From positions 1 through 21,701 of IMG/VR virus record IMGVR_UViG_3300010151_000220: a DNA stretch of 21,701 bases, one strand, 5' to 3'. Positions 321 to 21,701 of this stretch are shown here, in pieces. The notes below the pieces were generated by a model, which was not told the origin of the DNA, ran no database searches, and was given only the letters and a program-made list of their open reading frames with translations. The first letter of the stretch is position 1; the number at the start of each line of letters is the position of its first letter. The position numbers and the translations under genes were made by a program. This DNA comes from a virus.

Positions 321-332
321 GATTTTTCCTTT

Positions 333-1505: not shown

Positions 1506-1532
1506 CAATCAGTTCCTCTGTCGTTTGTATAT

Positions 1533-4418: not shown

Positions 4419-4421
4419 GGC

Positions 4422-7055: not shown

Positions 7056-9049
7056 TATCGTCTCCCCATATATGTCTGGATCTTTGCTTTTATATCTAAT
7101 CCGGCATCGCTACCGTATTTCTTGAAAACCGCCCTATATTTGTTGAGCCACTTCCTCGCCGCTGTTCTTTTGTTCTCGTTAATTACATGGACTTGGTCGC
7201 CCAAGCCCCACCAGTATTCGGACTCTGTTTCTACTATTTTACTTTGCAGAAACGCTTCCGGGTCACTGCCAGGAGGCGCCATTCCGATCATCGTCATAAT
7301 GCCGGGGTACCTGTTTTCGTCGCGGAGTTCAGATACCGCTGCCTCAAAATCATCTGCCCTATCTTTTTTCATTCGGTCGGAACCGACAAGCTGGCGGGCG
7401 ATGTCCAATATCGTTCTCTCGTTGACGGGGTCGCCCACAGCGAACCCATACGCTTTTCCATTTTCGCCGACTTGACCATCGGTAAGCCAGTTGGTGATCA
7501 TGTCGATGTACTCGTTAAATTTCATCAGGGCGGCTCTGTCCGCCTGTTGCGTATCTGCCGACGTGAACTCCCGCTCGACAACCTTCAGCGTCCGACGAAT
7601 GTGATCTCTTGCCAGTTTCAACCCGCCGCTTTCGTTTGTTTTAGCGGCAACGTCTGCCATGGCTTTTGCGGCGTGTTCGCCTTGCAACAGGCCCAATTCC
7701 ATGAGACGTTCGACATATTCATATTCGAGCGTACCTTCAGCCTTGCGGCGTTCCAGTTCCAATGCGATGTCAGGCTGGAGGTCTCTCGTCTTTAGCAACG
7801 CCGTTCTAGTTTTCTGGGCAATTTCACTATGGCCCAGTCTGTTTAGCGCCGCGTCCATCGCAGATGCGCGTAACGTGGCGTTGGCATCATCCATGTCGCC
7901 CAGATTAAGGGGCCGCTGACTGGCGATGGCGAACTCTTTGGCAATGCCTGCGACACGGTGCTTCTCTCTGGCCTCCCACGCAGACCTGTCGAGAATGGGT
8001 TTGTTGGTCTTAATTTTATGCGCGTCATCCAGTGCTTTGATAAAGTCAGTCTTGGTGTCGTCATCCATATGTTGCCATATTCGGCCAAGGGCGAGGCTCT
8101 GTTCGAGGGTGCCAATACCCTTGAAATCAGATTTGCCGTGGTTGTTGTTGATGTGGTCGATCACAGCCGATTGACCCATTTCCACCGCCCGCATAACTCC
8201 GTTGCTGACAAGTGCCTTTTTGACGTGCTTATCCCAGGTTGCGTCGAAGGCCTTGAAATCCAGGCCGTTGACGACGGCGGTATGTTCCGCTCTTGCATAA
8301 ATGCTTTTGATTAGTTCAGGGTTGCCTGCTTCTATGGCCGTCACCACCGCGTCCTGTTCCAAAACAATAGACCGCTGGGCGACAGCCTTCCGCACCTTAC
8401 CTTGGTGCGTCAGGTATTTGGTGTTAAATGCATTTAAGGCGTTGTGGCCTTCGATGCGGAGGTTGGCGTAGAGCTTGGACGCTAGCACAGGTGAAATCTG
8501 CATCGCCGCATTCTTCGTGTCATCGACCAGCTTGTTCAGTTCGTCTTGCACTTCCGTAGGCGCCTTGATAGGTGCGCCGGACTGATCGTATGCAGCCTTG
8601 GTGATGCCGCCCATCGCAATCTTGGAATCGACGCTCAAATCCAGGTACATCTGGTCGAGGGCTGCGCTGCGGGCGGCGCGGCCAAATACGGTCCAGGTGT
8701 CGCCGGGAACCGGCTGACCCCTGGCATCGTACTCCCACTCCTTGGTGTTAGCATTCTGAATCAGGTCGGCAGATGGAGCGTTCTGTACCCCATAGGCCTC
8801 GCCTTCGACTTTCGCCTGCGCCGCAGCCGAGTTGAAGGCCATGCTGGTCATCTGGTTGAGGCGGTTCTGAAGATCCGCCGCGGCTTGGCTCTGAAGGGCG
8901 GCGGTGCGCTGCTGACCGGAGATGTTCATCTGCTGCGCCCGTTCAGCCGCCGCAGTGCGCTTTGGAGCAACCAAGCCTGCGGGCTGCAACGAGGCAAATG
9001 TCGGCACGGCGCCTCTAACTTGTCGGTTTGGTAATGGTCGCCTTGCCAT
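7055..9049 (-). CDS. Internal virion protein, T7 gp15-like, 664 aa
   Basis: This large, mostly helical protein lies directly after the gp14-like gene, the position of T7 gene 15, whose 747-aa product lines the ejection channel. It starts MARRPLPNRQVRGAVPTFAS, then shows helical hairpins rich in Ala, Glu and Lys throughout, for example MDAALNRLGHSEIAQKTRTA and RDHIRRTLKVVEREFTSADT. A late segment reads SEYWWGLGDQVHVINENKRT. I see no catalytic motif or signal peptide. ATG at 9049 has no convincing Shine-Dalgarno sequence and is 2 nt past the previous stop, suggesting coupling. The TAA shares one base with the next ATG (TAATG). Assignment rests on order, length and composition, less on motif. 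Confidence 0.7.
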   Translation of the reverse strand: MARRPLPNRQVRGAVPTFASLQPAGLVAPKRTAAAERAQQMNISGQQRTAALQSQAAADLQNRLNQMTSMAFNSAAAQAKVEGEAYGVQNAPSADLIQNANTKEWEYDARGQPVPGDTWTVFGRAARSAALDQMYLDLSVDSKIAMGGITKAAYDQSGAPIKAPTEVQDELNKLVDDTKNAAMQISPVLASKLYANLRIEGHNALNAFNTKYLTHQGKVRKAVAQRSIVLEQDAVVTAIEAGNPELIKSIYARAEHTAVVNGLDFKAFDATWDKHVKKALVSNGVMRAVEMGQSAVIDHINNNHGKSDFKGIGTLEQSLALGRIWQHMDDDTKTDFIKALDDAHKIKTNKPILDRSAWEAREKHRVAGIAKEFAIASQRPLNLGDMDDANATLRASAMDAALNRLGHSEIAQKTRTALLKTRDLQPDIALELERRKAEGTLEYEYVERLMELGLLQGEHAAKAMADVAAKTNESGGLKLARDHIRRTLKVVEREFTSADTQQADRAALMKFNEYIDMITNWLTDGQVGENGKAYGFAVGDPVNERTILDIARQLVGSDRMKKDRADDFEAAVSELRDENRYPGIMTMIGMAPPGSDPEAFLQSKIVETESEYWWGLGDQVHVINENKRTAARKWLNKYRAVFKKYGSDAGLDIKAKIQTYMGRR

Positions 9050-9051
9050 GA

Positions 9052-9753
9052 TCAGGTGAACCCAAATCCAGATCCAGATCCAAATCCAGATCCAGATCCA
9101 GATCCACCGATCTGGGCGAACTTGAAGGCGCTGCTGGCCATGCTACCCGCGGCAGATGTGAAGCCACGGGACTTGATGACAGAGGCTTGGTTCGCCGCAT
9201 TCTGGCGGATGACGTTTTGTTGGTATGGGTTCAGTTGCTCTACTATGTAGTTGGCGTCGGCGTCCATGACATCGGCCTGGAAGCCGAGGATGTCGGCGCC
9301 TGATATCTGGGTCTGCCGCTGGATCTCCTTGGCGGCGCGTTGGATATCGCCAGCCTCGGTCGCCGTCTGGAAATCTTCGAAGCCCGTGCCCAGCGCCTCC
9401 AAGGTCGGCACATTCCCGAGATCGACCATGCCAGATCCCGATGAGGCGTTGACGGCGGCTACCCGCTCAAGGGCCGTCTTCATGGCGGTGTTAGCTTCGT
9501 CGCGGCGCTGGAGGCGGGCGAACTCGCCCTCCAGGCCGGTCAGGCCTGCTTGTGACATTTGCAGGGAGGCTTGTGCCCTGGTCACCAGGGCCTGCGATTC
9601 CAGCTGCTGCGCCTCGCGTTGGGCTTGCAGGCCTGCCAGTTGCGCCTGTGCCGCCGCATTGGCTTCCACCGCCTTCGCTTCGGCTGATGCCTGCATTATG
9701 CCGGTGACGGCGGACACCGCCGACATCGCCAAACCAACTGCTGCCATCGTCAT
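9052..9753 (-). CDS. Internal virion protein, T7 gp14-like, 233 aa
   Basis: This is a probable ejection protein, stored in the head and inserted in the outer membrane during DNA delivery. It begins MTMAAVGLAMSAVSAVTGIM, a small-residue hydrophobic helix, followed by an Ala/Gln-rich coiled coil (ANAAAQAQLAGLQAQREAQQ onward). This design and its position after the gp12-like gene are typical of the gp14 family; T7 gp14 is 196 aa. The C-terminus is a GS/GF repeat (GGSGSGSGFGSGSGFGFT) encoded by 6-bp tandem units. ATG at 9753 has GGGA 8 nt upstream; ATG at 9747 is an alternative. It stops 2 nt before the next gene, which has no clear ribosome binding site. Confidence 0.78.
   Translation of the reverse strand: MTMAAVGLAMSAVSAVTGIMQASAEAKAVEANAAAQAQLAGLQAQREAQQLESQALVTRAQASLQMSQAGLTGLEGEFARLQRRDEANTAMKTALERVAAVNASSGSGMVDLGNVPTLEALGTGFEDFQTATEAGDIQRAAKEIQRQTQISGADILGFQADVMDADANYIVEQLNPYQQNVIRQNAANQASVIKSRGFTSAAGSMASSAFKFAQIGGSGSGSGFGSGSGFGFT
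9066..9107 (-). repeat. Seven tandem 6-bp units at the gp14-like gene end
   Basis: The plus strand carries seven consecutive units of ATCCAG, with single-base variants ATCCAA and ATCCAC. On the coding strand this gives alternating Gly-Ser/Gly-Phe. Unit gain or loss keeps the frame, so the tail length of the protein can vary freely. Confidence 0.9.
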
Positions 9754-9755
9754 AA

Positions 9756-11984
9756 TTATTGTCCCACGCTTACCTTGTATTCACACCCCAGGAGTGTGAA
9801 GAAAAGTGGATTGGTCTGGGTGAACTCCAGCGCAGCCGTCTTGGAAAAGCCGAGCAAGGGCCCGGACGATTTCACGCCCGTGAAGGTGTCCACGCTTTCG
9901 TCGAAGTCGGAACTGTCGAACGTGCGAAAGGTGACGCTGTTGCCCGACACCGAAATGTTTTGCGTCAGGTCGAGGATCAGGCTGGCGTCGATGATGCGTT
10001 TTTTCTGCCCAGTGATTGGGCCCGATGACAGCTTGGTTTCCACGGGCAGCGTCTTGACCTGAACCGTGTAGTCGAGGCCGAACTCTATATAACTGGAGGC
10101 TGGCCTCTCAATCGTCGCCACGCCGGACGCCGACACGGTATTGTCGGCCAAGACGATGTCATCAGCGATAACGCTGACGCTGGTGCTTGGCAGATGCGTC
10201 AGGTTGCGGGTTTCCGAAACCGTGCCGAAGGTCACCGCAGCGTTGTCCGCAGGCGAAGATGCGAGAGCCGCGGAAAGCGTCAGCGTGGACTTAAACGTGG
10301 TGCCCGTGCCGTCGTCAGCCAGAGTTGTCGCCGACGAGATCGTGCTTGTGCCCGTCACCCCGGCAACCGTGAAGGTGTCACCTGCCTGCGGCTGCGCCGT
10401 CAACGCATCGATCTCGAGAGACGTACCCGACTGCGCCGCGCCCCTCACCAGCGGAGAGCCGTAGTTTGCAGGCACAACCTGTAGCGCCGCATCAGTTGTG
10501 AAGTCAGCGTCGAACTTCTCGACGTGATAAACGGTTGCAGAGTTAATCGTTCGCTTAACAACTACATACATGTCGGTAACGTCTACACCGACGTTTTCGA
10601 ACGTGCCCGATGTAGTGAAGAGACTGGGCGCTATGACCTTCTGAGACCGTAAAAAGCTGTAGGCCGTGATGCTGCCGTCCAGGCTATTGACGACCAGCAA
10701 CAAGTCGCCTTCGTCGGTGGATGTTGCCTTCCGCAACGCCATGTCGGTAGGCGTGGCGAGGAGGTTTGATGATAGTAGTGATAAATTGTTGCTGACGTAG
10801 TTCGCGGAAACGTCGGAGAACTGAAATTCGTATAGGGCCTTTCCGTTTCTATGGATGAACAGCGTGCCGCTTTCCGAGCCCTGCGGTCTGATGCCCACCT
10901 TTGCGCCATGATTGGAACCACGCTTGACGGCGATGTTCGTCGGCGTTATCGGCTCAAGGTCAACTTGAGGTATAGAGAATTCTGCGCCCAGTGAGAACAC
11001 TTGCAGATCCCGGCCAGAGTGAATGCCGGTGATGGCATTCAGGCTGTCGGTGGAGATGGTCGCCTCCAGGGCCTCGTCGTCTAGTGCCTGCCCCGGGTTG
11101 AAATTGAAAAAGTCGTTGACGCGGCTGGCGTACATCGTCGTCGGGCGGTCCCTGGTGCCGCCGAACCAGAGGCGCCCCTGGTGAAATGTCGCCGATCTCG
11201 GATATCCGCGGGTTCCAGACCAGACATCCTCGTAGCCGGTTTCCAGTGTCCAGCTGCCGGAGGCCATCGCCGTCGTCGAGAAAAACGGCAGTTCAGTGAC
11301 GGCGTCAACGGATGTTCCAGACGTGTATCTGACGATCCGGGCTCGGCCAAGGCCGTCGTTGGCTTCGACGTACTGGCCCACGCTGCCGGATGAAAACACC
11401 GAACTGCCCGCGGTCAGCGTGATGTTTCCGGCGACGGCAGACGGCGTCAGGGTCGCAGACGGATTTGAAGTCGCCAGGGTGAAGGCATGCTGGGGCACGA
11501 AGCCGAAGGTGATTGTCGATATCGTCCAGTCGGCTGACGTTGCACCGCGGACGATTTTGCGTGGCGCCATGCCTTCCTGTACCAGGATAAGGGTGTCGGC
11601 GCTCTGAGTAAAATAGACATCAGCAAGCGTGGCTGATCCGATGCTCGTCGTCAGGTAGTCGTTGCCCGATGCATTGATGTTGGTGACGAGGGCGGCGTTT
11701 CGATAGACGAACATCTTGTTGTTGACGAACAGCAGCATGTAGCTGTCACTGACGGAGAACTCAAAGGCGACCAGCCGACAGCCGTTTTCGGGGTTGTCGC
11801 CGGACGGAATGGTGTGGATAAACTTCAGGCCGGGTCTGCGGCCCAATCCGCCTTGGGGCTGAATGACGACATTCCGAGCTTTGTCGAGCGCCGAGTAGTA
11901 TTGATCGATATCGACGCGGGCCCTTAGTTGTGGATCAATCTCGCCAATCGTGAAATCGGTCTGGATTTGAAATACCCGCGACAT
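9756..11984 (-). CDS. Tail tubular protein B (nozzle), T7 gp12-like, 742 aa
   Basis: This protein forms the tail nozzle. The N-terminus reads MSRVFQIQTDFTIGEIDPQL, then RARVDIDQYYSALDKARNVV and IQPQGGLGRRPGLKFI, which is the family signature 'F..GE.SP.L.GR.D...Y..G....N.....GG...RPG..F'. Next come GCRLVAFEFSVSDSYMLLFV at about residues 68-87, RSATFHQGRLWFGGTRDRPT at about 262-281 with the 'FHQ.RL.FGGT...P' motif, and FFNFNPGQALDDEALEATIS. The C-terminal third is Thr/Ser-rich beta structure. Length is close to T7 gp12 (794 aa). It overlaps the gp11-like gene by 1 nt. Confident. Confidence 0.94.
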   Translation of the reverse strand: MSRVFQIQTDFTIGEIDPQLRARVDIDQYYSALDKARNVVIQPQGGLGRRPGLKFIHTIPSGDNPENGCRLVAFEFSVSDSYMLLFVNNKMFVYRNAALVTNINASGNDYLTTSIGSATLADVYFTQSADTLILVQEGMAPRKIVRGATSADWTISTITFGFVPQHAFTLATSNPSATLTPSAVAGNITLTAGSSVFSSGSVGQYVEANDGLGRARIVRYTSGTSVDAVTELPFFSTTAMASGSWTLETGYEDVWSGTRGYPRSATFHQGRLWFGGTRDRPTTMYASRVNDFFNFNPGQALDDEALEATISTDSLNAITGIHSGRDLQVFSLGAEFSIPQVDLEPITPTNIAVKRGSNHGAKVGIRPQGSESGTLFIHRNGKALYEFQFSDVSANYVSNNLSLLSSNLLATPTDMALRKATSTDEGDLLLVVNSLDGSITAYSFLRSQKVIAPSLFTTSGTFENVGVDVTDMYVVVKRTINSATVYHVEKFDADFTTDAALQVVPANYGSPLVRGAAQSGTSLEIDALTAQPQAGDTFTVAGVTGTSTISSATTLADDGTGTTFKSTLTLSAALASSPADNAAVTFGTVSETRNLTHLPSTSVSVIADDIVLADNTVSASGVATIERPASSYIEFGLDYTVQVKTLPVETKLSSGPITGQKKRIIDASLILDLTQNISVSGNSVTFRTFDSSDFDESVDTFTGVKSSGPLLGFSKTAALEFTQTNPLFFTLLGCEYKVSVGQ

Positions 11985-12601
11985 CAGCGCACATCTGTCA
12001 AAGCAAACGTCTGTATGCGGCTGGGGATCTGCCCCCGGCCATCCATGTGCATGGCCTGACGCAAATATCCGCCGCGGCCATTTTCAGCTGCCACGCCGAA
12101 CAGTCGGTTGTGCCAAAGTTCTGCTTTTTCGATCTGGTCTGTGACCAGTTCAGCGAGATGCGCCGCCATGGCATAGCGCAAAGCCTGGACGAAATACGGA
12201 GGCATTGACGCCTCATCGACGCTGAACAGGTAGTCGATGACGATGGCTGTCTCATTGCTTTGCAGACGGTCGCCAAGGATTTCCCAGCCGGTGGCAACAG
12301 GGCTGGCGCCCGTCGCCGTCGAATTGTAGACGGCCTGCGGCCCGGACATGATCATGTCAGGCGGCAGTTGATATTCGTAAGTCCACTCGTTCGTCGGGGT
12401 CGATGATAGTTGTGCCAGCTGCACCTTCTTGGTGGCGAACGACCAAGGATACATCGACAGCATTGTGTTTTTGGTTCCAGGGTAGAGTTTGTCGCAGACG
12501 CCAGCAATCTCTGAGCCGTCAGAAAATGACGAGATCTCGCTTTCGCCAAGGAGGTTGAGGGCGGTACTGCAAATGTTCACATCGGTGTCGCCGGTCGCCA
12601 T
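11984..12601 (-). CDS. Tail tubular protein A, T7 gp11-like, 205 aa
   Basis: This adaptor forms the upper ring of the short tail, between portal and nozzle. It starts MATGDTDVNICSTALNLLGE, continues SEIAGVCDKLYPGTKNTMLS, then YPWSFATKKVQLAQL, matching the gp11 family pattern 'INICS.AL..LG......F.DGS..A..C...Y......L...PW.FA.K...L'. Later, MPPYFVQALRYAMAAHLAEL (about residues 133-152) is the conserved 'P..F..AL...LA..LA' helix. Its length is close to T7 gp11 (196 aa). GGAGG lies 4 nt upstream of the ATG. Its TGA shares a base with the next ATG (TGATG). Confident. Confidence 0.93.
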   Translation of the reverse strand: MATGDTDVNICSTALNLLGESEISSFSDGSEIAGVCDKLYPGTKNTMLSMYPWSFATKKVQLAQLSSTPTNEWTYEYQLPPDMIMSGPQAVYNSTATGASPVATGWEILGDRLQSNETAIVIDYLFSVDEASMPPYFVQALRYAMAAHLAELVTDQIEKAELWHNRLFGVAAENGRGGYLRQAMHMDGRGQIPSRIQTFALTDVR

Positions 12602-12631
12602 CAGACCTCCAAAGAAAAATAATGGGGACGA

Positions 12632-12653
12632 GGCGGCAGGTTGCCCCGCCGCC
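12632..12653 (-). terminator. GC-rich hairpin between decoration and tail genes
   Basis: In the minus-strand RNA, a 9-bp stem (GGCGGCGGG pairing with CCUGCCGCC, one G-U pair) closes a GCAA tetraloop of the stable GNRA type. A T-rich stretch (ATTATTTTTCTTT) begins about 9 nt after the stem. This is further than in a strong intrinsic terminator, so a leaky terminator or an RNA-stabilising hairpin that limits expression after the capsid genes is likely. Confidence 0.5.
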
Positions 12654-12669
12654 CCGCACCTAGTTAGTG

Positions 12670-12951
12670 CTAGTCGCTGTCGGTCGCGGTCACAACAAGA
12701 CCGTCAGTGACATCGACAACGCCGGATGCATTCGCATTCACATACGAAATACTGACCACAGGCGTGCCGCCCGATGCGCTGACGCAGAAAATCACATCGT
12801 TGACTGCTACGTCACCTGACACCGAGTCGAAGTACGAAGCCGCCCGAATTACGCTCTGGGCATCCGTACTGGTGTAGGACCATATTTGTGGGGCCGAGCC
12901 CTTGCGGCTCTGACCGCCGATGGGATTCCAGCCCGCTCTTGCAAAAGCCAT
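12670..12951 (-). CDS. Probable head decoration / head fibre protein, 93 aa
   Basis: The small protein begins MAFARAGWNPIGGQSRKGSA and continues PQIWSYTSTDAQSVIRAASY, FDSVSGDVAVNDVIF. A start of this type, followed by 'W.Y...DA...V..A.YF......V.D.I', is common in short phage proteins encoded directly after the capsid gene, which are thought to decorate the shell. The second half is beta-rich (VVSISYVNANASGVVDVTDG) and low in charge. AAGGAGG lies 7 nt before the ATG, so it would be made in amounts like the capsid protein, which supports a stoichiometric virion component. It starts 19 nt after the capsid stop. Decoration role is inferred from position and expression. Confidence 0.65.
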   Translation of the reverse strand: MAFARAGWNPIGGQSRKGSAPQIWSYTSTDAQSVIRAASYFDSVSGDVAVNDVIFCVSASGGTPVVSISYVNANASGVVDVTDGLVVTATDSD

Positions 12952-12970
12952 TTTTTATCCTCCTTATGGA

Positions 12971-13825
12971 TTAGGCTGCGGCGGCAGTGTCGCGGCAGGT
13001 GATTTCAACGATGCCTTCGGCGTCGATGCCGACAGCGCCTGCACTGAAGAGCGCGGACACGAGCCAGGACACTTTCTCCGGGACATAGTTGACCTCGACG
13101 CGAGAGCTAATGCCTTCGGCTAGGCCGATGGCGTGTTTGTGCCACGCGAGACATTTCCTGTCGGAACTGCCGTCGATGGCCAAGCCGTTCTCGTCCATGT
13201 CGCCGATAACAATGACATTAAAGCCCATGTACTCACCAAATTGACCGCTGACCAACGGACGGCCTGCCACAAAGTCGGCAGACGTTACAGCGGTCTGACT
13301 CAACAGCGAATTGAGGTTGTTGGCATGCATGAGAACGTACCGATCACCGGCTGGCACGTTCTTCGCATTGAGTTGCTTGTGAGCATCTCGCAGCTTGGCC
13401 TCATTCATGTTGGTGTTTGATCCGCCAATTGAATTGGCAACGGTGAGGGACGTGCCCGCGCCGTCAAGCGCATCGATCACCATCTGGTCGAGACGGCGTC
13501 CGATAGCCTTAGAGCAAACCTGTACCAACTCGGAGCGTTCCGAGAAGTTCACCTTCGCCTGATCGAAAATCGAGGTGTACTCCGGTGCCGCATAATCTGC
13601 CAGGGTCGCCGTCGCTTGGCTGAAGGTGGAATTTAGGGGCACGACATCGGTGCTGGGAGTGTGCACGGTGGCCACGCCTTTGCCGACTTTCGGGAATTTC
13701 ACCGTGGAGCCAACCACGCCAGTGCGTAGACGCACCGTATTTCGCAGCTTGCTCTCGGCTTGGTATGCCTGCTTCACCTCTTCGGAGAAGAGTGTGACGA
13801 AGGCGGGTGATAATCCAGTTGACAT
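12971..13825 (-). CDS. Major capsid protein, Phage_capsid_2-like, 284 aa
   Basis: This is the HK97-fold shell subunit. It starts MSTGLSPAFVTLFSEEVKQA and continues AYQAESKLRNTVRLR and VVGSTVKFPKVGKGVATVHT (about residues 37-56), then LADYAAPEYTSIFDQAKVNF (75-94) and a helix with SKAIGRRLDQMVIDAL. These match the order of conserved segments in the podovirus capsid family called Phage_capsid_2 ('FV..F...V...YQ....LRN.V...NGVVGST..F.K.GKG'). It has the usual position after scaffold. Length is typical of this family and shorter than T7 gp10A. ATG at 13825 has a near-perfect AAGGAGG, and it probably has its own promoter. No maturation protease gene is visible nearby. The call is secure. Confidence 0.92.
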   Translation of the reverse strand: MSTGLSPAFVTLFSEEVKQAYQAESKLRNTVRLRTGVVGSTVKFPKVGKGVATVHTPSTDVVPLNSTFSQATATLADYAAPEYTSIFDQAKVNFSERSELVQVCSKAIGRRLDQMVIDALDGAGTSLTVANSIGGSNTNMNEAKLRDAHKQLNAKNVPAGDRYVLMHANNLNSLLSQTAVTSADFVAGRPLVSGQFGEYMGFNVIVIGDMDENGLAIDGSSDRKCLAWHKHAIGLAEGISSRVEVNYVPEKVSWLVSALFSAGAVGIDAEGIVEITCRDTAAAA

Positions 13826-13943
13826 TTTTGCCTCCTTAACTGGGTCAAAGTTTTAATTTCGATCCAGTTGCGGAGATGTCCGGCTGGCAGATAGTCCGGG
13901 GTAGGCGCAATGCGTTGCTGCCCCAACTATGATCTGCCAAAAG
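13826..13943 (-). promoter_or_regulatory. Capsid gene leader and strong ribosome binding site
   Basis: This non-coding leader of about 118 nt separates the promoter-like region from the capsid ATG. It ends AAGGAGGCAAAA before the ATG, the best Shine-Dalgarno context in the window together with that of the following gene, as expected for the most abundant protein. I see no ORF or terminator in the leader. Confidence 0.7.
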
Positions 13944-13949
13944 ATCATA
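13928..13949. repeat. Perfect 8-bp inverted repeat over the capsid promoter -10
   Basis: TATGATCT and AGATCATA are exact reverse complements separated by GCCAAA. The right arm contains the -10 hexamer TATGAT on the minus strand and the left arm lies at about +8 to +15. It fits an operator dyad, or a 5'-end hairpin if transcription starts inside it. There is no T-run after it, so it is not a terminator. Confidence 0.6.
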
Positions 13950-13971
13950 CAAATGTCAAGCAGGTTGTCAG
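13944..13971 (-). promoter_or_regulatory. Sigma70-like promoter for the capsid gene
   Basis: On the minus strand, CTGACA (13971-13966) is followed after 16 nt by TATGAT (13949-13944), matching TTGACA/TATAAT at 5 of 6 bases each. A nested TTGACA occurs in the spacer. It lies about 120 nt upstream of the capsid ATG and is the best promoter candidate in the window. It would boost the major capsid gene within the late operon. Confidence 0.55.
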
Positions 13972-13973
13972 AC
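13946..13973 (-). promoter_or_regulatory. Copy 1 of the 28-nt conserved motif
   Basis: The minus strand reads GTCTGAC, 5 nt, then GCTTGACATTTGTATG. The same arrangement with a 4-nt gap and one substitution is found on the plus strand at 21462-21488. This copy covers the -35 and most of the -10 of the capsid promoter, so a protein bound here would control it, or the motif is itself a phage-specific promoter. Confidence 0.55.
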
Positions 13974-13986
13974 TTTTTTATTCCGG

Positions 13987-14154
13987 TTAGTGCAGGCTAT
14001 GGTTTGGCAAAATCGATGAGCCGCAGTTGACGCAGCGTAACTCCTTCAGTTCCGCAGTCTCGGCATCCGGCCTGTCGTCGAAAAACGCCAGCCAGTAGTT
14101 TGACGAGCATGAACAAAATGCTACGCCGTCTTCGTCGATGAAGAGGTCAATCAC
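13987..14154 (-). CDS. Small Cys-rich (zinc-ribbon-like) protein, 55 aa
   Basis: This short ORF starts at GTG 14154, inside the scaffold stop (GTGATTGA), and ends at TAA 13987. It reads MIDLFIDEDGVAFCSCSSNY, has a central acidic part, and continues ELKELRCVNCGSSI. The Cys-x-Cys (residues 14 and 16) and Cys-x-x-Cys-Gly (41-45) pairs are spaced like a minimal zinc ribbon, and WLAFFDDRPD between them is typical of a real fold. It has no good Shine-Dalgarno sequence, so translation would be coupled to the scaffold. No other start is possible, since an in-frame TGA lies just upstream and there is no internal Met. It fills otherwise unexplained space between scaffold and capsid leader. Function unknown. 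Confidence 0.6.
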   Translation of the reverse strand: MIDLFIDEDGVAFCSCSSNYWLAFFDDRPDAETAELKELRCVNCGSSILPNHSLH

Positions 14155-14980
14155 GGAACATCGGCACAGTCAACGACTGGCTGTCGCCTCTGACACCCCC
14201 ATATTCGGCATCGAATGCTTTCTCGACTTTCGCACGATAGGCGGCATTCGTCTGGTATTCCGGGTCTGCGACCATTGCGGAAAGTTCTTCCGCTCCGGGC
14301 CGCTGACTATCGGTCGAGGCCTCTATGGGGGCCATCTTTTCCCCGTAGAATGCCTGTATTTTTTCAAACACCTGGATGCCATGTGCGCTGCCCGCCATGA
14401 TGCGGGCCTCTTCAAAGTCGGCATCGTTCAAAATGCCCCGGCTATGCATGCGGGCCAACCACTGCGCCGAAGCCTGGATGCGGTCATCGGCTTTGGGCCC
14501 GAGGATTGATCGCTCCTCGGCGATGCTACGTTGCTCCTCCTCCATCCCGGCCTGCCCATTTTCGATGTAGCTTTTTGCCAGAGACGAGAAGGCATGCTGC
14601 GAAACACCAAATTCTCTCTCCCATTCAGTGAACGATTGCAGCATGGGATCTTGTGCGTCAACGCCAGCCTGCGTGATCTCGGTGGTGTCGTAGGTGCCGT
14701 CTTCGGGCACCTTGTGGCCATCAGCATTGAATTGGTTGCGGAGTTCGTTGTAGGACTTGCCGAGCTTTTCAGTGTCGGCCTCACCCTTCTCCGCGTTCCA
14801 GAATTGTTCTTGCAACCAATCAGGCCTTTGCCTGGGGGCGTCATCGCCCTCCGGGCGGTTGAAGCGGCCCACGTCAAGGTCGTCTCTATGTGAAAGTTCG
14901 TCGGGCGGCGCCGCCTGATCATCGCGGACATCCGGCACCAAGTCGTCGATGGCTGTATCGGCCATGGCTACATCGCTCAT
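14147..14980 (-). CDS. Scaffolding / capsid assembly protein, T7 gp9-like, 277 aa
   Basis: This directs capsid shell assembly and leaves before or during packaging. It is strongly acidic with little hydrophobic core, as scaffolds are. Residues about 52-84 (RPDWLQEQFWNAEKGEADTE, then KLGKSYNELRNQF) match the conserved podovirus scaffold start 'P..(L)P.KFWD...G....E.L.KSY.EL'. The central part is predicted helix and coiled coil (AGMEEEQRSIAEERSILG), and the C-terminus ends YGGVRGDSQSLTVPMFRD, probably the capsid-binding tail. It is 277 aa against 307 in T7 gp9. It lies immediately upstream of the capsid gene. ATG at 14980 is in an ATGA overlap. Confident from sequence style and position. Confidence 0.88.
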   Translation of the reverse strand: MSDVAMADTAIDDLVPDVRDDQAAPPDELSHRDDLDVGRFNRPEGDDAPRQRPDWLQEQFWNAEKGEADTEKLGKSYNELRNQFNADGHKVPEDGTYDTTEITQAGVDAQDPMLQSFTEWEREFGVSQHAFSSLAKSYIENGQAGMEEEQRSIAEERSILGPKADDRIQASAQWLARMHSRGILNDADFEEARIMAGSAHGIQVFEKIQAFYGEKMAPIEASTDSQRPGAEELSAMVADPEYQTNAAYRAKVEKAFDAEYGGVRGDSQSLTVPMFRD

Positions 14981-15237
14981 CTTTGTTTCCCTATTCTGGT
15001 TCTGTTTTCGATTTCTCTGACGATGGAATTCTGACCTTCGCGGGCATATCCATATGAGGCGTCAGACCCCGGCAAGAACGATGGTTGGTCGAGGGTTTTG
15101 GCGCGGAGGTAGGCGGTGACCTTGACGCCGTCATTGGTTGAGAAGACGCGTGCAAACAGTTTGTTGATGCTGTCTTGGCTGGTGTCTTCTTCGCCGGGTT
15201 GCGCTAGAAGTGCGGCCCAGCCGGTGTCATCGACCAT
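14977..15237 (-). CDS. Bbp19-like small structural protein, 86 aa
   Basis: The segment FARVFSTNDGVKVTAYLRAK at about residues 28-47, then LDQPSFLPGSDASYGYAREG and QNSIVREIE, matches the pattern of Bbp19-type phage proteins ('FA..F.T.DG..VL.YL...T...P......A...EG.R.....I'). Bbp19 was named in Bordetella phage BPP-1 and is associated with the virion; the gene is usually between portal and scaffold, as here. The ATG at 15237 has GGAG 5 nt upstream, starts 12 nt after the portal stop, and the TGA overlaps the scaffold start (ATGA). The biochemical role of the family is not established. Confidence 0.75.
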   Translation of the reverse strand: MVDDTGWAALLAQPGEEDTSQDSINKLFARVFSTNDGVKVTAYLRAKTLDQPSFLPGSDASYGYAREGQNSIVREIENRTRIGKQR

Positions 15238-15249
15238 GTTGTCTCCTGT

Positions 15250-16812
15250 CTAAGCGGCGGCGGGCGCCGCCTGGAGGTCGCCGGGGTTGGCGTTTTCGAC
15301 GCCCGCCGCCTGTGCAGCCGCGGCCATAGCCATCTGCTGCATTTGCTGTCGTTCTTGGGGGGTTGTCCGCAGTTCCCCTGGTACGCCAAGTTTGTCCGCA
15401 ATAAAATCTACGATGGCGTCGGTGCGGGCGGCAATCTGGCCCTCCGGCCCGAAGCTGGCGAGGATCTGCATCCACTGCATCACCTTTTCTATTTCTTCGT
15501 TGTTCTGCGCCTGCGCCAGGGGAGATACGGGGACCATCTTGACCTCCAGGCCGTCAACCTTGAGCGGCATTTTGATCAGGCCAGCCTCGTCCATCACCGC
15601 CAGGGTACGGCGCACCAGTGGGACCATCATTTCAGTAATTAATCTGCCGAATGCTGACCCAAGGTTCTGCGATAGCTCTTGCATCCGCTGGGATATTTCC
15701 AGAGCCGTCCTGGCGGACATATCGTCCCGCGGCAAGTTGTCGTCGAGCATGACTTTCTTGATCGACATCTGCATATCTTGCATGACCAGCTGGGCCAGCT
15801 GCACGTCACCGCCTCGCGGCAGGGGAATGAGGGAGGGGCCCTGCGGGCCTCCGTTCCGTGCGACGGGGATGATCGCGCCGGGGGCAATGTTGACGACCTC
15901 CGGGTTGAGGACGCCGTCGTCGGCAGCGGTGAAGACGGGGGCAATGGAGAGCGAGGCGTTCTTCAACAGGAACTCCTTCGCCTTGTTTAGCGTTTTGATA
16001 TCTGCGAGGCAGCTGAGAATCGGACCTCGGCCATAAATTTCGCCAGCGGTCTTGGAGAAGCGGCTGATGATCCAAGGTGAGGTCAGGCTGTAGCGGACCA
16101 GCAGCAGATGCTTGCTGCCGGGATGGATCACATGGAAGCAATATTCACCACGGTCGTCGTCGTAGATTGTGGCCTCCAAAAGGTCCGCTTCCTCTTCCGG
16201 GCGGTCAACGGCAAGGCGGCGCAATTCGTCGTTCAGTTCAGCCGAGGGATATGTGCGCTGGATCAGGTCTGGCCGCATTCGGACCTTTCTGTAGACATTT
16301 TCCACTGTGTTATGGGGGCCTTCCTCCAGGCTGACCAGAAACGCGGGCACGGCGGTGTAGCGTATCGGCTCGGTAGAGGTGCCTTTTTCCACCAGCATGA
16401 CGGCTGTGCCAACGGAAAGGTCAAGCAGGAACTCGCCTAGAGCGAGGTCAAAATTAGATTGCCGCAGGGTGGAGAACATCATCTCGCGGTAATAGTCGAG
16501 CATCTGTTGGACGGCTTGGGCTGCCTCCGGGGGTATGTGCTGGCCAGCCTCCAGGCGACACCAGGAACGGTATGGCGGAAAGAGGGTTGACTGCAGCCGA
16601 TTGGCGAAGCCCTGCGTGGATGCCACGGCGGTGGAATCGAAGAGGCGGTCATTCTTCCTGGCGCCACGGCTGCGGCCCTCATAGGTGTCGTACAGATTTC
16701 GCCCGGGCAGGCAATATTCATACGCCTCCTCGTACAGACTGCGCCATTCCTCTTTTCTGGCGTCGGCGCGTTTGTGGCGCTTGAGGATTTGCTCGACCGT
16801 CATTCTAGCCAT
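15250..16812 (-). CDS. Portal / head-tail connector protein, T7 gp8 type, 520 aa
   Basis: This forms the dodecameric portal at one capsid vertex, the docking point of terminase and the channel for DNA. Its length is close to T7 gp8 (536 aa). Family features visible are the N-terminal helical region RADARKEEWRSLYEEAYEYC (about residues 15-34) followed by LPGRN, the segment NDRLFDSTAVASTQGFANRL (54-73) leading to QSTLFPPYRSW, a long central beta-rich region, and the helical stretch DDMSARTALEISQRMQELSQ with the usual 'T-A-x-E-(I/V)-x-x-R' pattern. The C-terminus is Gln/Ala-rich and probably flexible. ATG at 16812 has AAGG 9 nt upstream; a second ATG three codons later is possible. Call is secure, supported by scaffold and capsid genes downstream. 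Confidence 0.94.
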   Translation of the reverse strand: MARMTVEQILKRHKRADARKEEWRSLYEEAYEYCLPGRNLYDTYEGRSRGARKNDRLFDSTAVASTQGFANRLQSTLFPPYRSWCRLEAGQHIPPEAAQAVQQMLDYYREMMFSTLRQSNFDLALGEFLLDLSVGTAVMLVEKGTSTEPIRYTAVPAFLVSLEEGPHNTVENVYRKVRMRPDLIQRTYPSAELNDELRRLAVDRPEEEADLLEATIYDDDRGEYCFHVIHPGSKHLLLVRYSLTSPWIISRFSKTAGEIYGRGPILSCLADIKTLNKAKEFLLKNASLSIAPVFTAADDGVLNPEVVNIAPGAIIPVARNGGPQGPSLIPLPRGGDVQLAQLVMQDMQMSIKKVMLDDNLPRDDMSARTALEISQRMQELSQNLGSAFGRLITEMMVPLVRRTLAVMDEAGLIKMPLKVDGLEVKMVPVSPLAQAQNNEEIEKVMQWMQILASFGPEGQIAARTDAIVDFIADKLGVPGELRTTPQERQQMQQMAMAAAAQAAGVENANPGDLQAAPAAA

Positions 16813-16915
16813 TGTCTTCGGCCTTCTTGTCGTTTTCTTCCTTGATTTCCTTTGGCGTCTTTTTTCGATGTTTTGGGTTTCTGATGAAGACCTTGTCTTG
16901 GGTATCTTCAGGCAT
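16805..16915 (-). CDS. Tiny basic protein, 36 aa
   Basis: This very short ORF reads MPEDTQDKVFIRNPKHRKKT and ends KKAEDNG; almost half its residues are charged. The ATG at 16915 overlaps the stop of the preceding gene by 8 nt, and its TAG overlaps the portal start by 8 nt (ATGGCTAG). An ATG 22 codons further upstream is possible but would overlap the 118-aa gene more and has poorly spaced SD. It fills exactly the space between two real genes, which is the main reason to accept it. No function can be proposed. Confidence 0.5.
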   Translation of the reverse strand: MPEDTQDKVFIRNPKHRKKTPKEIKEENDKKAEDNG

Positions 16916-17264
16916 TATACGCCCCCGCTCGGCGGGGCTTTCGCGATGGTCCCAACGTTTTGTTAGAGCCTTTCGGGTCATCGAGTAGCCCAACTTCCGG
17001 CGATTTCCTGTCTTGCGTTGTCAGCAGGCGTCGGCCTTTGCGCCGAGTTTTCGCAGCTGACGCCGCCGTTTGCAGTTGCTCCTTGCGTTCACTTTCGACG
17101 CGGGCTTCTTGTGTATCGATACGTTCTTCCAGTTCTTTTTTCTGCGCGTCGATCTGCACTTGTTGTGCGTCTATCCTGGCTTGCAGCGCCTCATTAAAGG
17201 CGGTGTTGTCGGGTGGCGGCGGCGGGGGTGGCGGCGGCGACGGCTTGGAGGAGAAGATGCTCAT
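16908..17264 (-). CDS. Polyproline plus coiled-coil small protein, 118 aa
   Basis: Not a recognised family. The protein starts MSIFSSKPS and runs directly into nine prolines (residues 10-18), then a long predicted coiled coil (FNEALQARIDAQQVQIDAQK onward to about residue 66, with repeated I-D-A-Q/I-D-T-Q units), then a basic segment (AKTRRKGRRLLTTQDRK). Short podovirus proteins with a Pro-rich start and an R-R-x-G-R-x-x-(I/L)-(L/T)-T segment are common between terminase and portal genes and are probably minor virion or assembly proteins; T7 gp7.3 has a comparable Arg/Lys-rich end. The ATG at 17264 follows the previous stop by 4 nt, and its TGA overlaps the next ATG by 8 nt. Function inferred from position only. 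Confidence 0.65.
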   Translation of the reverse strand: MSIFSSKPSPPPPPPPPPDNTAFNEALQARIDAQQVQIDAQKKELEERIDTQEARVESERKEQLQTAASAAKTRRKGRRLLTTQDRKSPEVGLLDDPKGSNKTLGPSRKPRRAGAYNA

Positions 17265-17268
17265 GTTG

Positions 17269-17961
17269 TCATGCTCCTAATGTTGCGCCGCCAGCGCCGA
17301 GGAAGGCGTCAGACGTGGCGCGGCTGCGCCGCGGTCTGCGACGGCCTCGACCTTTCGACTCCTTGGCGGTGATCTGTTGTTGCTGTTGGACGAGGGCGGA
17401 TGTCTCGCCAGCCTCAAAGGCCGGTGTGTCGGCAGGCGTTGACGTGGTCTTGGGAATGACCTGCGGCGCTGCTGCCGCCGCTGCCGCCGCTGCCGCCGCA
17501 GTGGTGGTGCTGGATGCCGTGCTGATCTTGCCGTCTGCCTTCGCCGCTTGCTCTTTCGCGGCTTGCTCTTTCGCAGCTTGCTCTTTCTCTGCCTGTGCCT
17601 TCGCCGCCGCCGGATCTTGCTGTACCTGCCAGATCGACTCTACCTTCGTGTCGTAGGCGCGGCGCTTGTACCTGTTGCCGTGTTGGTCGGGTGCGGTCAA
17701 GACCGACATCTCGGGCACACCATACTCGCCGTAGCTTGTCGTAGTGTTGCGCTCGTAGTCGTATTCGGCTTTCGTGCCGGTGCGCCATTCTTCCTGACCT
17801 GGACCATGGCTGTCGCGGATGAGATACCTCTTTCGACCTGTGTCAACGGCGTGATAGCCCGGGGCTATTTGCGCCCCCGCCGCAGGTTCGCCGTAGAGAT
17901 CTACATTCGGCGTAACGTACTCCTGTCGGGAACGCTGCTTGCCGCCGAAAACCCCGCTCAT
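17269..17961 (-). CDS. Low-complexity virion-associated protein, 230 aa
   Basis: Function unknown. Residues 1-115 look globular (YVTPNVDLYGEPAAGAQIAP, then an Arg/Tyr-rich stretch ending in VESIWQVQQD). Residues 118-142 form a charged repeat of A-A-K-E-Q units, 155-165 are eleven consecutive alanines, and 191-196 are a Gln run. The C-terminus is basic then small (SKGRGRRRPRRSRATSDAF, then LGAGGATLGA), a pattern seen in short podovirus proteins encoded near the portal gene. The frame is open 96 codons further upstream, but ATG at 17961 fits: AAGGTG lies about 6 nt before it and it forms ATGA with the GNAT gene stop. It could be an assembly factor or minor head-tail protein, by position comparable with T7 gp6.7/gp7.3; this is inference. 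Confidence 0.6.
   Translation of the reverse strand: MSGVFGGKQRSRQEYVTPNVDLYGEPAAGAQIAPGYHAVDTGRKRYLIRDSHGPGQEEWRTGTKAEYDYERNTTTSYGEYGVPEMSVLTAPDQHGNRYKRRAYDTKVESIWQVQQDPAAAKAQAEKEQAAKEQAAKEQAAKADGKISTASSTTTAAAAAAAAAAAPQVIPKTTSTPADTPAFEAGETSALVQQQQQITAKESKGRGRRRPRRSRATSDAFLGAGGATLGA
17471..17497 (-). repeat. Three 9-bp tandem units coding poly-Ala
   Basis: The plus strand carries GCTGCCGCC three times in perfect tandem, within the codons for an eleven-alanine run in the 230-aa protein. Unit copy number could vary without breaking the frame. Confidence 0.85.
17546..17590 (-). repeat. Three 15-bp tandem units coding A-A-K-E-Q
   Basis: On the plus strand, GCTTGCTCTTTCGCG is repeated three times (17546-17560, 17561-17575, 17576-17590), the last two with small changes. 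It lies inside the 230-aa protein gene and encodes a charged helical repeat. In-frame loss or gain of units would change only the linker length. Confidence 0.85.
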
Positions 17962-18464
17962 TTTGTCACCTTGGAATACATAAAGTAGTCGGCTCCATCC
18001 GGGCCATATTTTCGCAGGCGACCTTCCAGGTCGAAACCTAATACATCCGCCCATCGAATTGCAAGAGGATTGTATGAATGGATTGTAAATTGGAGCCGCC
18101 GCAGCCCGGCATATGTATAGACATATTCGATGCCTTTCGTGGCGGCGCGGTGGAAAATGAATTTGTCGCGGGACAGGTATTTGGATGTGAACATCCAGCC
18201 CTCGGCCACGCCATCCCAGTACGGTATGAAGCCGAATGCAACAACGCACTCGCCTTCGACGAGGCCAGCATATTTCGCTGGATACGCCAGCAGCGTATCG
18301 GCGAAAGCCCTGATGGAGCCGCCGCCAAGGGCACCGATATCAACATCGCGCAGTTCCATGGCCATGACGTGATGCGGCTGGCATTCGACTATGTCGCCGC
18401 GCCTTGGCAGGTTGACGGCCTGAAGCAGTTCGTCCGCCGTGGGCCAGACGAATTCAGAAGACAT
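17958..18464 (-). CDS. GNAT-fold protein resembling T7 gp13, 168 aa
   Basis: The sequence has the shape of a GNAT acetyltransferase: IVECQPHHVMAMELRDVDIG near the N-terminus, a central strand pair GECVVAFGFIPYWDGVAEGW at about residues 77-96, and a C-terminal YTYAGLRRLQFTIHSYNPLA followed by WADVLGFDLEGRLRKYG. Such proteins match the family of T7 gp13, an internal virion/morphogenesis protein. The usual acetyl-CoA loop (Q/R-x-x-G-x-G/A) is not visible; the equivalent region reads RDKFIFHRAATKG, so enzymatic activity is doubtful. ATG at 18464 is chosen over an upstream TTG; it overlaps terL by 11 nt with GGCGGA close upstream. In T7, gene 13 follows the tail tube genes, whereas here it follows terL. 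A structural role is likely but inferred. Confidence 0.7.
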   Translation of the reverse strand: MSSEFVWPTADELLQAVNLPRRGDIVECQPHHVMAMELRDVDIGALGGGSIRAFADTLLAYPAKYAGLVEGECVVAFGFIPYWDGVAEGWMFTSKYLSRDKFIFHRAATKGIEYVYTYAGLRRLQFTIHSYNPLAIRWADVLGFDLEGRLRKYGPDGADYFMYSKVTK

Positions 18465-19989
18465 TGAAGTCCGCCCTGGCAATATGCGGCTTGTTGTGCA
18501 TGGGGCGCCGCGTCATCCTCCGGTGTTCGCCGCCGCCGGTCATCAGATATCCGAAGGCGTCACCAATGTGACTATGTTCATTTTTATAGGGCATGTCGCG
18601 GAACAGTTCCGCGCCCCGCGAATCGGGTATGCGTTTGAAGTGATAGCCGCCAGCCAGCGCCTTTCTTGTCTGGTTACAGCTACGGTCGATCTGGAGGCCG
18701 GGACGGCCCTGCACCAGCCGTGTCATGGGCAGGGCGCCGCCTTCACGGCGCACCTGGAAGTCGTTCGACGGGGCAGGGCGGGCGTTCAGGCCTATGGTCT
18801 GCAAATGGTCAAATGCAGTAGTCTCAAAGACCTGATCCCGTTGACCGCCCGCCGGGTCGCCAAATATTTCGAGTTCATGCTTGGGCCAATAGCGGTTACA
18901 GAACATGAGGAGGTCGTTAGCAAAGCGGGCGAGGCCCATGTCTCTGGACACTACCTCGCCCAAGATAAACCAGCAACCACTGGGCTGACGCTGGCCAATG
19001 CAGGCGGCAGGCGTCAAGCCGAAGTCGAGGCCGATTTGCAACGGCATGTCGGGGTTCGCCTCCAGGCCATCGGCAACCATGGTGTCGTCATCAAACTCGG
19101 GCCAGACAGGCCTGCCCTCCTGGACGTAGACGAACTTGGCCTCCAGATAGCATCTGATCCAGTCGAGGTTCTTCCCGCCAAGCTGCTGATCGTAATATCC
19201 GGGCGGCAGGTTGTTGTAGTTCTCTGACGTGCCCTTGACGTGCCAGTGCTTACCCGCCGACGTGATGGTGTTTTCGTCTTCGTGGGCCTCTTCGACTGCG
19301 CCATTTTGCCGGTAAAAGTGCCATGGATATTCGCCGCGGACGGGCTCTTTTTCGCTTAATCTGTACCACCAGTGATCATCGCTCATGGCGTTGCTGTCGA
19401 GCCAGATGCCGCGCCACGTCACGCCGCCCATGGCGCGGCTGGGGTATCTACCCACCCGATGCGTCAGCCCCTGGATGACGCCTAATGGCATCTCCCTTGC
19501 TTCGTTCACCCATGCGCCCGTTATTTCCAGCGATAGCAATTTTCGGACATCAACGTCCTTGTCGAGGGCAATGAAAAGCACTTCGCAGTCGATGCCGGGG
19601 ATGTCGTCTTTTGGCGGCAGCTGGATGTGATGCGTAATCGGCGGGCTCCAGCGCATCGGCCCCCAGATATGCTCCGGGAAGATGTCTTGCCATGTCTTGA
19701 TGGTCGTCGTCCGTAGCATGGGGTACGAATTTCTGACGATGACAAAGCGGGTTTTGCGAATATTATCGGCGGGGTCAGGCTCCTGGTTCGCCGCCCGCAG
19801 CATGATCTCTGCGGCGCAGGCATAGGACTTGCCAGAGCCGACCGGCCCCATGATACCCCTGACGAAGGCATCGTCTTGCAGAAACTTGCTGCATATCGGC
19901 GATGTAGAAAAGTCGAGATTGAGAAGGCCTGATACGTCAGCCTTCGCCTTTCTCGGCCTCCGCGCCGTCGCTCCCTTCCTCCGGGCCAT
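18454..19989 (-). CDS. terL: Terminase large subunit, 511 aa
   Basis: This is the ATPase-nuclease that translocates phage DNA into the procapsid and cuts it. The Walker A motif GPVGSGKS is at residues 48-55, and a Walker B-like strand with catalytic Glu lies in LEITGAWVNEARE at 154-166. The C-terminal RNase-H-like nuclease shows its three acidic sites: GLDFGLT at 320-326 (Asp322), FGDPAGG at 376-382 (Asp378) and HIGDAFGY at 474-481 (Asp477). Length is normal for the family. The N-terminus is basic. ATG at 19989 follows GAGG by 7 nt. The gene starts inside terS and its TGA overlaps the next start by 11 nt, so the three are translationally linked. The call is secure; the packaging mode (cos, pac or direct repeats) cannot be read here. 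Confidence 0.96.
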   Translation of the reverse strand: MARRKGATARRPRKAKADVSGLLNLDFSTSPICSKFLQDDAFVRGIMGPVGSGKSYACAAEIMLRAANQEPDPADNIRKTRFVIVRNSYPMLRTTTIKTWQDIFPEHIWGPMRWSPPITHHIQLPPKDDIPGIDCEVLFIALDKDVDVRKLLSLEITGAWVNEAREMPLGVIQGLTHRVGRYPSRAMGGVTWRGIWLDSNAMSDDHWWYRLSEKEPVRGEYPWHFYRQNGAVEEAHEDENTITSAGKHWHVKGTSENYNNLPPGYYDQQLGGKNLDWIRCYLEAKFVYVQEGRPVWPEFDDDTMVADGLEANPDMPLQIGLDFGLTPAACIGQRQPSGCWFILGEVVSRDMGLARFANDLLMFCNRYWPKHELEIFGDPAGGQRDQVFETTAFDHLQTIGLNARPAPSNDFQVRREGGALPMTRLVQGRPGLQIDRSCNQTRKALAGGYHFKRIPDSRGAELFRDMPYKNEHSHIGDAFGYLMTGGGEHRRMTRRPMHNKPHIARADFNVF

Positions 19990-20620: not shown

Positions 20621-20941
20621 TCATACTCCATATTTGAGAAAGTCATAGGCGTCTGAAAAGTCATAAAAGTCTGCCTCTGGAACACCCAGAGCATTCGAAT
20701 ACTGCTGCGCCCAGACACTTCGGCGGTCACCGGCCTCCGGGCCGTCGTAATAGCCGAGTATGTCTACGCGCCGATTGCAAAGCTCAAGCCTAGACAACGT
20801 CCTGGGCGACACGCCAACCTCGTGCGACATTCTTCTAAGGCTCCAGCCTGCCGCCTCCCTCATTGGCCGCAAAAGTTGCCGAATATGAGCGGCCTCGGCA
20901 TCGCTAAATACGCCGTCCTCTACCCGATTGTTGAGCTCCAT
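20621..20941 (-). CDS. XRE-type helix-turn-helix protein, 106 aa
   Basis: This is a probable DNA-binding regulator. Residues about 24-54 match an XRE/Cro-like helix-turn-helix: LRPMREAAGWSLRRMSHEVG is followed by VSPRTLSRLEL, with the expected 'G-x-S/T-x-x-x-x-S/A-x-x-x-G-V-S' spacing and a recognition helix in SPRTLSRLE. The C-terminal half is acidic and aromatic (ADFYDFSDAYDFLKYGV) and may be a dimerisation or partner-binding segment. ATG at 20941 is preferred, with GGAGG about 10 nt upstream; a TTG two codons earlier is possible. Its TGA overlaps the next ORF. Being upstream of the terminase genes, it could control the late operon or, since the small terminase lacks an HTH, help recognise packaging DNA; both roles are inference. 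Confidence 0.7.
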   Translation of the reverse strand: MELNNRVEDGVFSDAEAAHIRQLLRPMREAAGWSLRRMSHEVGVSPRTLSRLELCNRRVDILGYYDGPEAGDRRSVWAQQYSNALGVPEADFYDFSDAYDFLKYGV

Positions 20942-21104
20942 CTCCAATTTCCCTCCGGCTTAATCGTTGATATTCCCGTACTTTTGCAGACCACATGACC
21001 TGCATTTCCGGCGCTTGCGCCCGTTTTGCGGCCCTGTCGAGCCGCTCTAGCACCCACTCAATCCTCGAAAGGCGACGGGTGTCGTAGTCTTCATGTATAG
21101 GCAT
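20904..21104 (-). CDS. Small charged helical protein, 66 aa
   Basis: No family is recognised. The frame is open further upstream, but the ATG at 21104 is chosen because GGAG lies 7 nt before it, whereas the longer form adds 47 residues antisense in style (Arg- and Ser-rich) and would overlap the whole preceding gene. The product is basic and mostly helical (RRLSRIEWVLERLDRAAKRA at about residues 10-29, then MQVMWSAKVREYQRL), resembling a short coiled coil or an adaptor. It overlaps the preceding gene by 14 nt and the following HTH gene by 38 nt. The tail (GAQQSGRGRRI) is read from bases that also encode the start of the HTH protein. Function unknown. Confidence 0.55.
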   Translation of the reverse strand: MPIHEDYDTRRLSRIEWVLERLDRAAKRAQAPEMQVMWSAKVREYQRLSRREIGDGAQQSGRGRRI

Positions 21105-21279: not shown

Positions 21280-21494
21280 CGGACAAAAACAGGGAAAATT
21301 TTGTGTGATGGCCCCCCTCTATCGCCCCCGCCCCCGGGGGGCCCTATATCGACTTCTGGCGGGGCCCCGCGCACCAGCCGTCGTCGCATAAATGTAGCAG
21401 CCGCAGCGGTCGTTGACGGTCCACGCCGCCAGCCGCAGCGGGACGCCTCGGTCGTACAATTGTCTGACGTTCGCTTGACACTTGTATGCGTCAT
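21276..21494 (-). CDS. Doubtful 72-aa ORF coupled at both ends by ATGA
   Basis: This ORF starts with an ATG inside the ATGA overlap with the upstream partial gene, and its TGA again forms ATGA with the next gene, which argues for a real cistron. The protein itself is unconvincing: it is rich in Arg, Gly and Pro, with a GC-homopolymer stretch (GPPGGGGDRGG at about residues 50-60) and no recognisable domain. Over the 34 codons from about 21358 to 21459, a hand count gives 22 GC-ending codons in this frame against 29 in the frame ending at 21319. A sequencing indel in the G/C runs at 21312-21344, or a frameshift at 21491, would explain the conflict. No function is proposed. Confidence 0.3.
   Translation of the reverse strand: MTHTSVKRTSDNCTTEASRCGWRRGPSTTAAAATFMRRRLVRGAPPEVDIGPPGGGGDRGGPSHKIFPVFVR
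21319..21459 (-). other. Competing reading frame with the stronger coding character
   Basis: This frame overlaps the 72-aa ORF and reads as a more natural protein, with DRGVPLRLAAWTVNDRCGCY near its start followed by an Arg-rich tail, ending at TAG (21319-21321). It is open back to a TAG just before 21500 but has no ATG or GTG; the only start codon available is TTG at 21459, without a Shine-Dalgarno sequence. It lies +1 relative to the partial gene that ends at 21491, so a single-base slip at CGA-TGA-C would fuse the two. Past its TAG, the same frame continues into the 62-aa gene at 21091-21279. It may be a frameshifted extension, part of a decayed gene, or a consequence of a sequencing error. 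Confidence 0.35.
21462..21488 (+). promoter_or_regulatory. Copy 2 of a 27/28-nt conserved motif
   Basis: The plus strand reads GTCTGAC, 4 nt, then GCTTGACACTTGTATG. The minus strand at 13946-13973, in the capsid leader, reads GTCTGAC, 5 nt, then the same 16-mer with one C/T change. The two copies face opposite ways. This copy has no acceptable -10 box downstream, so it is more likely a protein-binding site than a promoter. It lies inside a region that may also be coding on the minus strand. Confidence 0.5.
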
Positions 21495-21700
21495 CGTTCC
21501 ACCACTATCGCTGCCGATGCTGGCGCTTGACCTGGGTGCGCCGCCAGCCACGCCGTGGTCAGGTCGAGGATCTCATCCACGCCTAGGCCATCACGCATCG
21601 CCGCCCTGACATGTCGCGCCTCATCGACGCCGATTCGCAGGGCGCCGGTCCTCGCCTCGACCAGCCTCACCCACCGCTCCGCGACTCGCCTGACTTCCCT
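21491..21700 (-). CDS. Unknown protein, C-terminal 69 residues (5' end outside window)
   Basis: I do not recognise this protein. An open frame enters from the right edge of the window and stops at a TGA at 21491-21493. The readable 69 residues are mostly predicted helix, with many Arg, Glu and Ala; they include the segment GVDEILDLTTAWLAAHPG at about residues 40-57, and third codon positions are strongly GC-rich, as in the sure genes. There is no stop in this frame up to the window edge. Its TGA is followed by C and overlaps an ATG (ATGA), the coupling seen elsewhere in this operon. The frame one base over continues with better codon use than the ATGA-coupled ORF, so the annotated stop may not be the true end (see findings). 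Coding status is fairly secure; function is unknown. Confidence 0.6.
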   Translation of the reverse strand, partial: REVRRVAERWVRLVEARTGALRIGVDEARHVRAAMRDGLGVDEILDLTTAWLAAHPGQAPASAAIVVER

Positions 21701-21701
21701 C

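Follow-up and report, generated by a model that had tools for sequence, protein, structure and literature searches.

A short sequence shared by the capsid leader and the replication/packaging boundary of a phage contig as a probable landing site for a regulatory protein

The window analysed here, 21,701 bases with 59.6% G+C, is the whole of an IMG/VR virus record that is classed as linear and is possibly a fragment (Table 1). Nearly all of its genes lie on the minus strand, in the order replication-initiation gene (end only), 62-aa gene, XRE-type gene, small and large terminase, portal-like, scaffold-like, major capsid protein and tail proteins, where the portal, scaffold and tail labels were assigned by position against Methylophilales phage MEP301. 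Among isolated phages MEP301 is the closest by its terminase, at 60% identity, and has a similar order of packaging, capsid and tail genes (PMC8024684). One 15.8-kb contig (L094, also L006) belongs to the same species as the window and extends further into the early genes, whilst L093 and L095 are a pair from one sample, again of that species. L096 is a more distant relative, with a replication protein 74% and an XRE protein 61% identical. No useful DNA relatives of the region were found among phage records, none were found for the replication gene among the bacterial genomes searched, and there was no Rfam match in the window or in eight relatives.

Table 1. Coordinates of features in the window.
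Feature	Position	Strand	Remarks
Major capsid protein gene, downstream of copy 1	12971..13825	-	PHROG 3437, major head protein, E 6.6e-58
Folded 5′ leader of major capsid mRNA	13826..13939	-	-46.9 kcal/mol, z -5.1; ribosome-binding AGGAGG paired
Sigma-70-like promoter match CTGACA-N16-TATGAT	13944..13971	-	10/12; overlaps copy 1
Capsid-leader half-site GACATTTGTATG (within TTGACATTTGTATGA)	13946..13957	-	11/12 or 12/12 in L007-L009, 10/12 in L010
GTCTGAC block of copy 1	13967..13973	-	This spacing is confined to L005 and L006, of the window's species
Possible weak second arm of copy 1, GACTTTTTTATT	13971..13982	+	9/12 against half-site, 13-nt spacer
XRE-type HTH protein gene	20621..20947	-	HTH_31/HTH_3
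Block B, non-coding, G+C-rich (GTCGATATAGGSCCCCCCGGGGGCG...GATAGAGGGGGGC)	21280..21353	-	75-95% identical in L096; between copy 2 and packaging genes
Copy 2 as dyad	21453..21488	.	Arms 21453-21464 and 21477-21488, 12-nt spacer, 10/12 paired
Block A, 43 bp, holds copy 2 and replication gene stop codon	21453..21495	.	39/43 identical (91%) in L096
Replication-initiation gene (O-like, HTH_36), 3′ end	21491..21701	-	Complete in L094 5446-6090; PHROG replication initiation proteins

A sequence-only reading of this DNA had reported a 27/28-nt motif occurring twice in opposite orientation. Both copies are present where they were claimed: copy 1 (13946-13973, minus strand) reads GTCTGAC-N5-GCTTGACATTTGTATG and copy 2 (21462-21488, plus strand) reads GTCTGAC-N4-GCTTGACACTTGTATG, with 22/23 bases identical outside the gap and no further copy of the GTCTGAC-gap pattern within the window. 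The match had also been called far beyond chance, which does not follow from the match itself. A pair of the same shape (7 exact bases, a short gap and 15/16) was present in 44 of 3626 dinucleotide shuffles (1.2%), rising to 114 of 3626 (3.1%) when the gaps were defined more loosely, counts that leave out overlapping, tandem and palindromic pairs; the pattern-scan expectation of 0.00 is that for a pattern picked after it had been seen. The real window holds a second pair of such shape within a coding repeat. Moreover, under blastn scoring the copy pair is outscored by other self-matches of the window and is not among the best, whilst the best inverted self-matches of shuffled windows reach 29-46, above the copy pair. 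An excess over chance becomes reasonable because of the position and the separate conservation of each copy, not through similarity alone. DNA outside genes makes up 2.4% of the window, and of the 31 distinct 15/16 (16-mer) pairs found in it, against about six expected per shuffled window, the copy pair is the only one with both partners outside genes. Compared with the 161-nt capsid leader, the copy 2 block matches at 15/16, and the best of 300 shuffled leaders reached 14/16.

At the capsid leader the conserved part of copy 1 is TTGACATTTGTATGA, which recurs in six contigs (L005-L010) with capsid identities of 79-100%. In that order, it matches at 15, 15, 14, 14, 15 and 13 of 15 positions and lies 134, 134, 132, 132, 124 and 123 bp before the capsid start. 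In L009 the half-site is exact over 15 nt although the remaining leader differs. The element was not found in farther relatives (L011 onward), nor, despite the shared gene order, in the capsid leader of MEP301. In L007 about 80 bp of different sequence intervene between the GTCTGAC block and the half-site, and L008-L010 lack the block. The 27/28-nt composite has not been kept as a whole: in the capsid leaders of relatives only its TTGACATTTGTATGA half persists. The weak second arm of copy 1 corresponds to L094:13599, is not kept in L007-L010, and may be a chance match.

The promoter overlapping copy 1 had been described as the only good one in the window; positions 1-19999 contain 11 promoter-like sites against 8.6 expected, three of them with 10/12 matches. 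No sigma-70-like match occurs in the capsid leaders of L008 and L009, and -35 and -10 hexamers spaced at 16-18 nt are not conserved in relatives. These observations bear on the possibility that the copies are unrelated look-alikes, copy 1 being a capsid promoter (with TTGACA as its -35, or as CTGACA-N16-TATGAT) kept for the host RNA polymerase and copy 2 a separate conserved element, so that the 22/23 match is a coincidence in 21.7 kb. The shuffle frequencies of 1.2-3.1% and the roughly six 15/16 pairs expected by chance are in keeping with this, as are the promoter match over copy 1 and the fact that TTGACA forms the start of the conserved element in L005-L010. However, conserved non-coding DNA rarely holds both partners of such a pair, the two arms of the dyad at copy 2 (described below) each resemble the capsid half-site, and the capsid element is kept past TTGACA (TTTGTATGA), where a -35 predicts nothing. 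Whereas the conserved TTGACA is promoter-like, conservation runs on into the would-be spacer, no -10 is conserved at a fixed distance, and there is no promoter-like sequence at or after copy 2. To coincidence we assign a probability of roughly one in four, chiefly because the match itself is not extreme and few contigs show copy 2.

The half-site lies just upstream of the strongly folded leader of the capsid mRNA. Folding in relatives ranges from z -4.0 (L009) through z -2.5 (L010) to z -1.7 (L007); support for a common structure over all five leaders is weak and the fold has no Rfam entry. In the leaders of L009 (287-395) and L010 (733-840), GGAGGUUAC pairs without mismatch with GUAACCUCC close to the 5′ end, and the ribosome-binding site is paired. 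The predicted folds suggest control of capsid translation. The small gene before the capsid gene (13987-14154) is swapped among relatives: the window and L006 carry a 55-aa ORF there, L005 and L007 what looks by eye like an HNH-endonuclease gene, and L008 a different sequence.

Copy 2 occupies a gap of roughly 210 bp between the replication-initiation gene and the 62-aa gene, the first of the packaging operon, and is visible in four contigs (the window, L094, L095 and L096), three of which are one species. L094 spans the entire surroundings and shows that copy 2 starts at the replication gene's stop codon. Here the sequence forms a dyad, CATACAAGTGTC-N12-GACAATTGTACG, that is the capsid half-site in both directions, with one half-site oriented like the capsid copy. 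Its pairing score of 10 was reached in 21 of 4000 shuffles and, jointly with L096, in 3 of 3000. The opposite orientation of the copies had been taken to argue against co-directional late promoters, an objection that fails because the second arm of the dyad reads toward the packaging genes. No further strong half-site occurs in the known parts of the phage, whose genome is incomplete. In a wider dyad search the extra viral matches (L099 and L100) belong to unrelated phages, where they lie within or overlap genes, and ten bacterial matches, with spacers lacking similarity, are at about chance level.

Conservation around copy 2 falls into two blocks. In the alignment with L096, identity is 40-50% before block A, 90-95% across it and 20-45% after it, rising again in block B. 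Three of the four changes in block A alter residues in either plausible reading frame, which therefore points to constraint on the DNA. This matters for the idea that copy 2 is conserved as coding sequence, within an ORF (21276-21506, minus strand) running from the replication gene stop to the start of the 62-aa gene. Such an ORF is open in the window, L094, L095 and L096, and in the window's species its ends have overlapping stop and start codons; however, substitutions in blocks A and B are mostly non-synonymous and do not favour third positions, and the central part of the ORF cannot be aligned as protein, making a coding explanation very improbable. Block B folds no better than its shuffles and is possibly a packaging, origin or termination element. 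The block, which is at 4470-4545 in L096, immediately precedes the packaging genes and has a recurring CGATAnAGG as well as runs of C and G.

Copy 2 and block B could together form a packaging (cos/pac) or replication-origin element, with copy 1 as a second site of the same terminase or initiator. Consistent with this, copy 2 directly follows the replication-initiation gene and precedes both terminase genes, and two conserved non-coding blocks lie within 215 bp. Yet three contigs read through the region with no fixed DNA end, although headful packaging is compatible with read-through, no run of iterons was noticed, and such a site before a capsid gene has no obvious use; we regard this account as unlikely. 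More improbable still is that the copies are crossover sites at which a small serine recombinase flips the intervening 7.5-kb segment. The copies are inverted and the recombinase (L094 1725-2501) is nearest the DNA-invertase family PHROG 125, but spacers of 4 and 5 nt do not provide the identical core and spacing required, the segment has the same orientation in the window and L094, a flip would leave the terminase and portal genes running opposite to the capsid genes, and the capsid copy in L007-L010 is a half-site only. The recombinase gene, on the minus strand of L094, encodes a resolvase domain and adjoins a gene for a 239-aa protein without Pfam match; a resolvase-domain protein is also present in MEP301.

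Taken together, the capsid mRNA leader has a single half-site just upstream of it, and a further two, arranged as a dyad, lie between the replication and packaging modules, each of these two places being upstream of an operon of structural or packaging genes. A common DNA-binding protein would be the simplest account, because two separately conserved non-coding elements share the half-site and each precedes a late operon. Our preferred reading, held at a little under even confidence, is that the shared sequence is a binding site, with a half-site of about GACAnTTGTAYG, for a phage-encoded (or host) regulator that would switch the packaging/portal and capsid/tail operons together. The positions, the dyad and the conservation at both places are direct observations. 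From these we infer one protein at both sites, acting on transcription and at a particular time: one dimer, or two, would occupy the dyad, and the protein would use the capsid site as a half-site next to a promoter, so that both operons would be activated or repressed together, probably late in infection. A repressor would fit, as would an activator that substitutes for contact at a -35, or a replication or packaging protein with a second role. Points against a regulator are the differing spacers (4 versus 5), the weak second arm of copy 1, the lack of a promoter at copy 2, the 1-3% obtained by shuffling, the few contigs with copy 2 and the want of a convincing XRE or ribbon-helix-helix candidate.

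Among the meanings listed by the sequence-only reading, a phage regulatory site is the best supported, but its choice of the XRE protein as the regulator is not borne out: the gene is cleanly missing from L095 (3880-3890), where copy 2 is kept, which leaves it a weak and unlikely candidate. Autoregulation of a ribbon-helix-helix protein (L094 from about 3637) was likewise considered and rejected; the upstream 9/12 pair is weak, occurs in L094 and L095, and is not conserved in L096. The 62-aa protein encoded beside copy 2 has just one CXC and no Pfam match. No phage RNA polymerase gene was seen among the genes examined in this incomplete genome.

The only comparable late-promoter dyads found in the literature are those of phage P2, where late promoters activated by Ogr carry TGT-N12-ACA dyads (PMC3931495). 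The likeness lies in the recurrence of a short dyad ahead of several operons for structural genes, with a single small phage protein as activator. In contrast, the inner dyad at copy 2 is TGT-N14-ACA, copy 1 has no ACA partner, and the 62-aa protein lacks CX2CX22CX4C, the motif of the small zinc-binding Ogr. Operators of XRE/cI-type phage repressors are also dyad sites in intergenic DNA. The present dyad is intergenic and the phage encodes an XRE-type protein nearby; however, the dyad is not adjacent to the promoter of that XRE gene, and in L095 it occurs although the gene is absent.

Phages of this group are known mostly from metagenome contigs, and the timing of their late genes is hardly known; for MEP301 no RNA polymerase gene was reported, and its description does not mention promoters (PMC8024684). 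A wider interpretation, which from the sequence we consider possible but rather doubtful, is that an undescribed phage regulator recognises GACAnTTGTAYG both in the dyad between the replication and packaging modules and in the lone half-site of the capsid leader, and would thereby coordinate the timing of packaging and of capsid synthesis in a group of phages that apparently uses the host RNA polymerase. A conserved site at two late operons offers a handle on late timing, and one 36-bp probe could fish out the regulator.
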